64,000 bases of DNA, taken from contig NC_088312.1 of assembly GCF_910592395.1 (NCBI RefSeq), positions 124,001 through 188,000 on the forward strand. The letters are read 5' to 3'. The position numbers were made by a program, and so were the translations under genes. This DNA is from Lineus longissimus. Lineage: Eukaryota > Nemertea > Pilidiophora > Heteronemertea > Lineidae. Shown here one piece after another: positions 8,401-11,321 of this stretch. Position 1 is the first letter of the stretch; every line of letters begins with the position of its first letter. The notes beneath the pieces are model-generated. The model did no database searches and had not been told where the DNA came from. It saw only the letters and a list, made by a program, of their open reading frames with translations.

Positions 8401-11321
8401 GAGAGGCTAAGCGATTATTGAAAGAGGCTGTAGTGTTACCACTCTGTATTCCTGATTTTTTCACTGGTATCCGCAGACCCTGGAAGGTAATGTCAACCTG
8501 TATCATATTTGCATATCACTCCTTGTTCAATGTGATGTATTTACTGACCTTCCAATTCTTACCTGTTGACACCAAGGGTTGACTCTAACTAGTCGTGTAA
8601 GTTTGGGTCACAACATGTAGCAGCATGTTTCTGGGTGGAAGATGTCTATGATTAAACGTTTGATAGCAGAAAGTTTGGGGATGACGTTTGTACCTTATGG
8701 GGAAGTGTTCTGGACGTGCTGGAGATGTCATCATATACCCGACTATCACTTGTACTGTAATGTTTAACTGTTGCAGGGTGTCCTGATGGTGGGGCCTCCA
8801 GGGACCGGCAAGACATTACTCGCTAAAGCAGTTGCCACCGAATGTGGTACGACCTTTTTCAGCGTCTCGTCCTCAACTCTTGCGTCAAAATGGAGGGGCG
8901 AATCAGAAAAATTAGTCCGCCTACTTTTTGAAATGGTAAGGATGTCAAAGTGAGAGGTGATAAAATGTGTTTTTTCTTGCAGGGTGTTTTGATGGTTGGT
9001 CCTCCTGGGACTGGTAAGACTTTATTAGCCAAGGCCGTTGCCACTGAATGTGGCACTACCTTTTTCAGCGTGACATCAGCGACCTTGGCCTCAAAGTTTC
9101 GGGGGGAATCTGAGAAGCTAGTCCGTGTCCTCTTTGATATGGTACAGTTGATCATCTACATCTCCTGGGCATGTGCTGCTTACTTTTTCAGTAGACATTT
9201 TCTCCCTTGCCTGCGGTTATTCATTGTCAAGAATGGTTGACACCAATTGCCTCGAATTACTTTTCTTTGTATCTTCTCTGATCTTCAGTTGTTTTGTTAG
9301 ATTAGGGTGCTGGAATCTAAGGAATGTTTACTACTCAAAAATATATGTTTCCACTTCTTACTGCATGGTTTTATTACATGTAGGGCTCATTCTTGTAGCA
9401 TGGTTGATGGCGGTTAAAGTCAGATTGGTCTCCATTTTGAAGTTTTGTTGCCATGGACCTCTTGCCTGAATAATGTGACCGCTGCTTCTCATCATGTGGT
9501 CCCCGGTTGTGGAATGCCCTACCGGAGCACATCAGGGGGGCGGACGCGCTGCTTGCTTTTAAACGACTCCTAAAATCCTGGCTGTTCGAGGAAGCATTTC
9601 TTGGTGGGGAGGTAGCGCCTTGAGCAGGTTTACCTGGAGTTTGGCGCTCTATAAGACATTGTTGATTGATTGATTGATTGATAACAGAGGGAGCATGATG
9701 AATTCAGGTTTGCATTGCACATGCTTTATGATTAATGTACATGAAATGAATGTTGTGATGTTTTTATACTGAAATCTTCTAATGATCTTTGAAAGTTCTT
9801 TTGTTATGAGGTCTTGTATTCTACTCTAAATGTTCTACTGACTCTAGTATTACTTTCCGTACAAATGGAATGATGTGGTGAAAAGCATGATAAACACAGT
9901 TTACCTTGATACAGATGATAGATCACTCCGTATGTTGTCATAACTCCGTTTCAGGTCACAACAACTAAAATCGCTGGTGTGCGTAACGATAGCAGCTCAT
10001 AGAGGAGGGTGTCCTTGAGACTTGTCCATTGTTTACTCTCACTACTGTGGCATAAGTACTCTTGTCTCACTCTACATTGGTTCAACAACTTACCTTTCTC
10101 GTGTGTCCTCGGGCAGCTCACTCGGATATTGTCTCAATTGTGTTACTAGCAATTGACTTTCTACTATGAATCTTTTACAGGCTAGGTTTTATGCTCCCAG
10201 TACCATCTTCATTGACGAGATTGACTCGTTGTGTTCACAGAGAGGTGGCAGCTCTGAGCACGAGTCGAGCAGGAGGGTCAAATCGGAGATTCTCGTCCAG
10301 ATGGATGGTAAGTGTGAGAGAATATCACACAGACAGAAGTCACTGTCTTTCTGCTCGCATATATCATGCCTCTCTTTGTAATATCACTGTGTGATGAGTC
10401 TTCATTGGAGGGTTGTGGTCTTCAGACGTCAAAATGTAATCAACTATTCCATGAAATAAAGTGTGGTAACCAAGTAGCTGTTTGTTGTAGGTGTGGATGC
10501 TGGCAGTGATGATGCAACTAAGATCGTGATGGTGCTGGCTGCTACCAACTTCCCATGGGATCTAGATGAGGCATTGAGAAGGAGGCTGGAGAAGAGGATT
10601 TACATTCCATTGCCATCAGGTAAACCAGGAAACCAAGTGATATGCAGGGGTTCCTTAGTTGGGCACATCTCGCACTTGCAACATGTATAGACTTCAGAAA
10701 CACGTGTAGTTACATGAGAAAGGGATGAAGTATCTTGGCTCGCGTTATAATGAACTCCAGCTTTATCTACTCTCTCTCATAACTTACAGTTGAGGGATGT
10801 GAGCAGCTGCTGAAGATCAACCTGAAGACAGTCGAACTCCATCCTGACGTCAACTTGGCGGCCATTGCAGCTAAGATGGAGGGATATTCTGGGGCGGATG
10901 TCACAAACGTTTGCAGGTAAATGAGTTTTGTGCTAATGAGGGCCAAGGAGCTAAAAGCTCTAATTAGTGAACACCCCTTGAAATGGATCAATAATGCATA
11001 TCCTTTGAATTGTTTGTATCCAAAACCATGACGTTCTTTGACCCTCAAAGTGGTCCTAAAGAAGGACCCGGGTCAAACGGGTCAAAAACGGGTCAAAACT
11101 GCAGTCGTCTCTTCCATTTCAGGGATGCAGCCATGATGTCTATGCGGCGGGCTATTCAAGGCCTTACTCCAGAGCAGATTCGAAACATGCCCAAGTCTGA
11201 GTTGGCCAAGCCGCTGACCATGACTGATTTAGAGGAAGCGATCCAGAAAGTAAACAAAACTGTCTCGAAGGAGGACATCGAGAGATATTCTAAGTGGATG
11301 AATGAATTTGGATCAGTCTAA
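5468..11321 (+). CDS. KATNA1: Katanin p60 ATPase-containing subunit (microtubule-severing AAA ATPase)
   Basis: Catalytic subunit of the microtubule-severing enzyme katanin: a hexameric AAA ring that pulls tubulin tails through its pore. Coding exons are 5468-5647, 5959-6158, 6526-6721, 6982-7085, 8381-8486, then either 8777-8935 or 8983-9141, then 10181-10307, 10491-10619, 10790-10916 and 11123-11321 (TAA). All join in phase and give 508 residues, close to the usual roughly 490. Residues 1-75 form the MIT domain; about 76-190 is a Pro/Lys/Gly-rich linker. The AAA module has Walker A GPPGTGKT (about 268-275), pore loop KWRG or KFRG (about 300-303), Walker B FIDEID (about 325-330), sensor-1 ATN (375-377) and arginine-finger RRRLEKR (387-393). 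The C-terminal part contains [12 protein letters not shown] and ends [16 protein letters not shown]1 versus KATNAL1 orthology is not settled by eye. The duplicated Walker A exon is the striking feature. Confidence 0.95.
6391..6518 (+). repeat. 42-bp tandem repeat (3 copies) abutting a katanin splice acceptor
   Basis: Units start at 6391, 6433 and 6475 with the core CTTTCTGGTGTTTAGTG. The array ends a few bases before the acceptor AG (6524-6525) of the 6526-6721 exon, and each unit carries a CTTCTTT pyrimidine tract like the one in front of the true acceptor. Confidence 0.9.
7194..8322. repeat. 113-bp minisatellite, about 10 copies, in a katanin intron
   Basis: Near-identical units begin at 7194, 7307 and every 113 bp to about 8322, filling most of the intron between the exons ending 7085 and starting 8381. 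Variants are few (ATCAATG/ATCGATG, GTGTAGG/GTGCAGG), so the array is young or homogenised. Long minus-strand open frames across it are a by-product of the repeat. Confidence 0.95.
8777..8935 (+). other. Katanin alternative exon 6A (Walker A, pore loop with Trp)
   Basis: The exon is 159 nt (53 codons), phase 0 at both ends, with acceptor TTGCAG before it and donor GTAAGG after it. It encodes Walker A (GPPGTGKT) and pore loop 1 as [10 protein letters not shown], ending LLFEM. It splices in frame from the exon ending 8486 to the exon starting 10181 (ARFYAP). It is one of two tandem versions; see 8983-9141. Confidence 0.9.
8983..9141 (+). other. Katanin alternative exon 6B (Walker A, pore loop with Phe)
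   Basis: The exon is 159 nt and phase 0 at both ends, with a stronger pyrimidine tract before its acceptor and donor GTACAG. The first 30 residues are identical to exon 6A although 16 of those 30 codons differ synonymously. Over the other 23 codons there are 13 synonymous changes and 5 replacements: Ser31Thr, Ser33Ala, Trp39Phe, Leu49Val, Glu52Asp (exon numbering). The intron from 6A is only 47 nt (8936-8982). Confidence 0.9.
9501..9684 (+). mobile_element. 3' fragment of a non-LTR retrotransposon (LINE) with TGAT tail
   Basis: Reading from 9501, a short frame reads [16 protein letters not shown] then [14 protein letters not shown] and stops at 9621-9623. This matches the WNxLPxxIR...FKxxLKxxLF pattern found at the C-terminal end of many non-LTR reverse-transcriptase ORFs. 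It is followed by a GGCGCTCTATAAG 3' end and about five TGAT units (near 9662-9683), as LINE and SINE tails often are. It sits in the katanin intron 9142-10180 in the gene's sense orientation and is strongly 5'-truncated. Confidence 0.65.

Follow-up and report, generated by a model that had tools for sequence, protein, structure and literature searches.

Gene content of the locus

The stretch of Lineus longissimus DNA analysed here (the window: 64,000 bases, 43% GC, positions 124001-188000 of contig C5) contains a katanin p60 gene of the KATNA1/KATNAL1 type. We set its exon borders by eye from GT/AG dinucleotides and homology (Table 1). The spliced model is 508 aa long whether it includes exon A or the neighbouring exon B, and the identification follows from the presence of all four expected domains (Pfam KATNA1_MIT, AAA, AAA_lid_3 and Vps4_C), each above cut-off. 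The closest solved structures to the model are those of katanin A1 and katanin A-like 1. From family membership, the product would be expected to sever microtubules.

Table 1. Features of the katanin p60 gene and of the remainder of the window (window coordinates).
Feature	Position	Strand	Remarks
Katanin p60 coding region	5468-11321	+	11 exons, A and B both counted
Exon 1	5468-5647	+	
Exon 2	5959-6158	+	
Exon 3	6526-6721	+	
Exon 4	6982-7085	+	
113-nt tandem repeat	7190-8321		10 copies, 99% matches; occupies most of the intron two exons 5' of the pair
Exon 5 (exon 5' of the pair)	8381-8486	+	Ends in phase 0; donor GTAATG
Exon A	8777-8935	+	Holds Walker A; Trp in pore-loop 1 (SKWRG); both splice sites ordinary
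Spacer between A and B	8936-8982	+	47 nt
Exon B	8983-9141	+	Walker A half with the residues of exon A; Phe in pore-loop 1 (SKFRG); GTACAG donor very weak, acceptor strong
Dispersed repeat	9480-9680		In the intron 3' of exon B
Exon 3' of the pair	10181-10307	+	Starts in phase 0
Further 3' exon	10491-10619	+	
Further 3' exon	10790-10916	+	
Further 3' exon	11123-11321	+	
Single 938-aa open frame	13991-16807	-	Secretin-family seven-helix domain (PF00002); next gene-like feature past katanin
Reverse-transcriptase fragment	19077-20096	-	PF00078
Long tandem-repeat array	33977-34968	+	By chance open in at least one frame
Long tandem-repeat array	41455-43584	+	By chance open in at least one frame

Across the genome (391,118,348 bases in 30 contigs), KATNA1_MIT has a single match, located in this gene (best 4 candidates scored), and Vps4_C has four matches distributed over three genes (best 12 candidates scored). 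Besides katanin, these are two genes whose exon sequences suggest VPS4 and a VPS4-like gene. The P-loop exons of both differ from that of katanin in their borders, and a single P-loop match was found for each within the 7 kb examined. The VPS4-like gene (contig C12, 14752801-14759800, minus strand) has SSWVG as pore-loop 1 and an intron of 91 nt. The search pattern matched 8 stretches in viral contigs and 104 in prokaryote contigs, none of them encoding a relative.

Conservation of exons A and B

The two exons are 159 nt long, in phase 0, preceded by AG and followed by GT, and they lie inside katanin p60 exactly where a sequence-only reading of this DNA had placed them. The pair therefore has the sequence features of mutually exclusive exons, being neighbouring, homologous, of equal length, in the same frame and bounded by GT-AG introns. 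Their products are identical at 48 of 53 residues. At the DNA level 40 of 159 nucleotides differ. Of the 53 codons, 29 carry synonymous changes and five encode a different residue (S31T, S33A, W39F, L49V and E52D, from A to B). The first 30 residues are identical despite 16 synonymously changed codons; our recount of these numbers agrees with the earlier one.

Nei-Gojobori counting with our own script gives a dN of 0.071 and a pS of 0.78, the latter too high for conversion into a distance; 20 of the 28 comparable fourfold sites have changed. When 40 random changes were placed in exon A in 20,000 simulations, the mean number of amino-acid changes was 24.5 and the minimum 14, none of the simulations had five or fewer, and 71% acquired a stop. 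The observed pattern is thus far beyond chance. Saturation of synonymous sites together with the low dN indicates that both copies have been maintained as coding sequence under long purifying selection, as had been proposed from the sequence at the outset, and that they are not assembly duplicates. An assembly or haplotype duplicate is likewise ruled out by the 75% identity of A and B as DNA.

Past the splice sites, the flanking introns of the two exons are dissimilar, with 30-nt identities of 37% upstream and 30% downstream. A DNA search of the whole genome with exon A listed two places among the best candidates scored, 100% and 75% identical, and these are A and B themselves. No convincing third copy was found in the window by tblastn, the next best match having an E value of 0.22.

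Replacements confined to the pore-loop-1 half

All five replacements fall in exon residues 31-53 (P = 0.012 for five of five in the last 23 of 53 residues, with the split chosen after seeing the data). Exon position 39, which corresponds to katanin residue 301, is Trp in A (KWRG) and Phe in B (KFRG), and the KATNA1 and KATNAL1 structures have Tyr there (KYRG). This position is the aromatic of the KX1X2G motif in pore-loop 1. In Msp1 and Vps4 that aromatic slots in between substrate side chains or sandwiches them (PMC7018516, PMC5716660), and in the comparison of AAA ATPases made for Vps4, W, F or Y is invariably found there (PMC5716660). Since all three occur at this position, both A and B keep a workable residue. 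The alternative element would be the substrate-gripping pore-loop-1 half of the exon, with the Walker A half unchanged as protein. The name "Walker A exon" used in the sequence-only reading is correct in that the motif lies inside the exon; it misses the part that differs, and because the replacements are confined to the pore-loop half, we consider the pore loop to give the exon a better name.

The KATNA1 and KATNAL1 structure pieces used for comparison, which we take to be human, differ from one another at two positions over the 53-residue stretch. Exon A has four differences from each of these pieces and exon B has eight, and at four of the five positions that distinguish A from B, the vertebrate residue is the one present in A. 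By parsimony, with these two outside sequences as the basis, four or five changes would have occurred on B and one on A.

Unequal splice sites

Donors and acceptors were scored with separate models, each derived from 30 reference sites (22 from Prp8 and 8 from katanin). Exon A has ordinary sites, its donor scoring above 18 and its acceptor above 13 of the 30 references. The acceptor of exon B scores above 27 of 30, and its donor (ATG/GTACAG) scores -0.2, below all 30 (minimum 3.9). No better phase-0 donor for a longer exon B was found up to position 9260. The description of each exon as complete with acceptor and donor thus holds for the GT and AG dinucleotides, but the two exons are unequally equipped. 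Since the B donor lies below every reference, usage of A and B is probably unequal, and A is probably the default exon, with B regulated or rare. We note that the ranking of the B donor as weakest depends on the measure: its U1 pairing energy is -4.1, as against -4.2 for the donor of constitutive exon 4, and by this measure it need not be dead.

The weak donor, with no substitute nearby, would also be expected if exon B had formerly been alternative and were now losing its use, so that nearly all mRNA carried A and the conserved protein segment of B were left over. The greater distance of B than of A from the KATNA1 and KATNAL1 pieces points in the same direction. However, B has retained an open frame and both splice dinucleotides, its five replacements are all conservative, its acceptor outranks nearly all references, and a constitutive exon of the same gene has an equally poor U1 energy. 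We consider this course of events unlikely.

Competing base-pairing between introns, as in Dscam-type docking/selector control, was looked for in the flanking introns. Of 40 random window pairs, 3 paired at least as strongly as these introns do, and a cruder comparison with 20 shuffles gave z = -3.6. Pairing of the 47-nt spacer with either flank did not go beyond shuffles (z = 0.65 and 0.08).

Spacer length and the joining of A to B

The spacer is about half as long as the shortest intron that we measured in this genome. None of 32 introns is shorter than 91 nt: 24 are from Prp8 (131-392 nt, with exact GT-AG borders in 22 of the 24), seven are constitutive katanin introns (170-1295 nt), and the shortest is the one intron sampled from the VPS4-like gene, which was picked because it looked short. 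With three genes in the sample, much shorter introns could make up a few per cent of the total and still have gone unnoticed. When 290,400 bases, the window included, were scanned ab initio for short introns, GT-AG pairs (1) proved no commoner than six kinds of control pair (0-6), and we draw nothing from that scan.

PMC5740500 regards steric interference as potentially at work where donor and branch point are less than 50 bp apart, and 57 of its human clusters (9%) fall below that distance. Because the whole spacer is 47 nt long, any branch point within it lies under this distance; the best candidates are at +25, +28 and +12 from the spacer's donor. These dimensions suggest that joining of A to B is probably blocked sterically. 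The sequence-only reading had likewise judged the intron probably too short for efficient splicing and had expected the choice of A or B to be enforced in this way, and the introns measured here favour that view. Against it, splicing occurs in human introns of 43 and 49 nt, both G-rich with poor sites, and of 56 nt (PMC4463651). In the 56-nt intron of HNRNPH1 it proceeds with a branch site 27 nt from the donor (PMC8363638), a distance close to that of the +25 candidate in the katanin spacer. Given these cases, we regard steric exclusion as a strong argument, though not an absolute one.

The reading frame, for its part, does not enforce a choice between the exons. Since 159 is divisible by three, joint inclusion leaves the frame open, and mRNAs with both exons (561 aa) or neither (455 aa) are each in frame. 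Consistent with what had been claimed for joint inclusion, the joined product would duplicate the P-loop: an AAA domain that otherwise aligns full-length with katanin A1 would contain two copies each of Walker A, the strand and the pore loop.

Two further accounts of the pair bear on this point. The exons may be alternative without being strictly exclusive, with A-B joined or doubly skipped mRNAs also made; as inactive or inhibitory products, these would adjust how much severase is present. The open frames of both extra forms and the splicing of ultra-short introns in human cells would allow for this; the spacer, so much shorter than the 32 measured introns, speaks against it, neither extra form has positive support, and we think it quite improbable. 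Constitutive inclusion of A and B to give an enlarged katanin would make use of a spacer whose donor is good and whose acceptor is very good. It would also require every mRNA to be spliced across a 47-nt intron and the AAA domain to accommodate 53 extra residues, and we regard it as very improbable indeed.

A proposed model of mutually exclusive exons

We favour the reading that A and B are mutually exclusive tandem exons of the L. longissimus katanin p60 gene, and give it a probability of roughly 0.7. Once the donor of exon A is engaged, the acceptor of exon B, 47 nt away, would be unusable with it, and each mRNA would thus take A or B. Exon A would be included by default through its ordinary sites, and B, with its strong acceptor and very weak donor, would need help at the donor. 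Each product would be a 508-aa severase with a common ATP-binding half and a differing pore-loop-1 segment, in which the Trp/Phe exchange at residue 301 and four conservative changes may alter the hexamer's grip on tubulin tails.

Mutually exclusive use had already been proposed in the sequence-only reading, and length, phase, homology, selection and spacer continue to argue for it; the pore-loop swap and the weak B donor had been missed. Several observations weigh against strict exclusivity. The sites at both ends of the spacer are good (A donor above 18 of 30, B acceptor above 27 of 30), a B donor below all 30 references would also suit a B that is rarely used, and the intron-length background comes from three genes only. 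The weak B donor and the short introns spliced in human are the main reasons that our confidence is no higher.

Comparison with known systems

Exclusive exons of the alpha-tropomyosin type are kept apart by a short distance between donor and branch point. The exclusive tandem exons treated in PMC5740500 resemble the katanin pair in being homologous neighbours of equal length and phase with a donor-branch distance below 50 bp; in katanin, by contrast, the whole intron is only 47 nt, and exclusivity is predicted. Exons 4a and 4b of OGDH (PMC7969005) are also tandem duplicates made exclusive through the geometry of the intervening intron, although there, in birds and mammals, branch points lie near the donor of a 118-131-nt intron, whereas the katanin spacer is itself very short. 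In NALCN (PMC3557258), the exon pairs 15a/15b and 31a/31b of invertebrates, molluscs and annelids included, swap a few pore residues and keep the rest of the protein. The pore residues swapped there belong to the ion selectivity filter of a channel with an unrelated fold, expression of both forms has been demonstrated, and the pairs are conserved across phyla.

Within the katanin family, several catalytic forms from one gene are described for mouse KATNAL2, which is another paralogue; the available portions of that report describe neither paired homologous exons nor a pore-loop swap (PMC8369831). The words katanin and KATN are absent from the main text of PMC5740500 and PMC9741552. We found no description of exclusive paired exons in katanin in open-access literature, an absence that is weak as evidence. 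The pair would thus be a known kind of device in a gene where no description of it was found.

Vertebrates have two near-identical p60 severases in one animal. It is tempting to set one KATNA1-type gene with two exon versions, as seen in one genome, against these two genes. KATNA1 and KATNAL1 arose by gene duplication. Over the exon stretch, their few differences leave them a common pore-loop 1, SKYRG (structures 5zql and 6b5c), whereas A and B differ at five positions, all in the pore-loop half. We tentatively suggest that, where an animal has just one KATNA1-type severase gene, exon choice might stand in for gene duplication. A Trp/Phe splice switch in pore-loop 1 could then yield two severases with a common ATPase half and different grips on tubulin tails, by which a cell could change katanin's reading of the tubulin code or mix subunits in one hexamer.

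If confirmed, the pair would provide a natural matched set of severases, five residues apart and including the pore-loop-1 aromatic, and with it a direct test of that aromatic in severing and in selecting among tubulin tails. The pair would likewise be a compact case of exclusivity through a spacer too short for splicing.

A repeat beside the exon pair

The intron 3' of exon B carries a dispersed repeat for which 40 places are listed in the genome (40 of 58 candidates scored), at 91-100% identity. Seven other full-length copies at 100% are found among the places listed, and these copies point to a recent insertion next to the exon pair.
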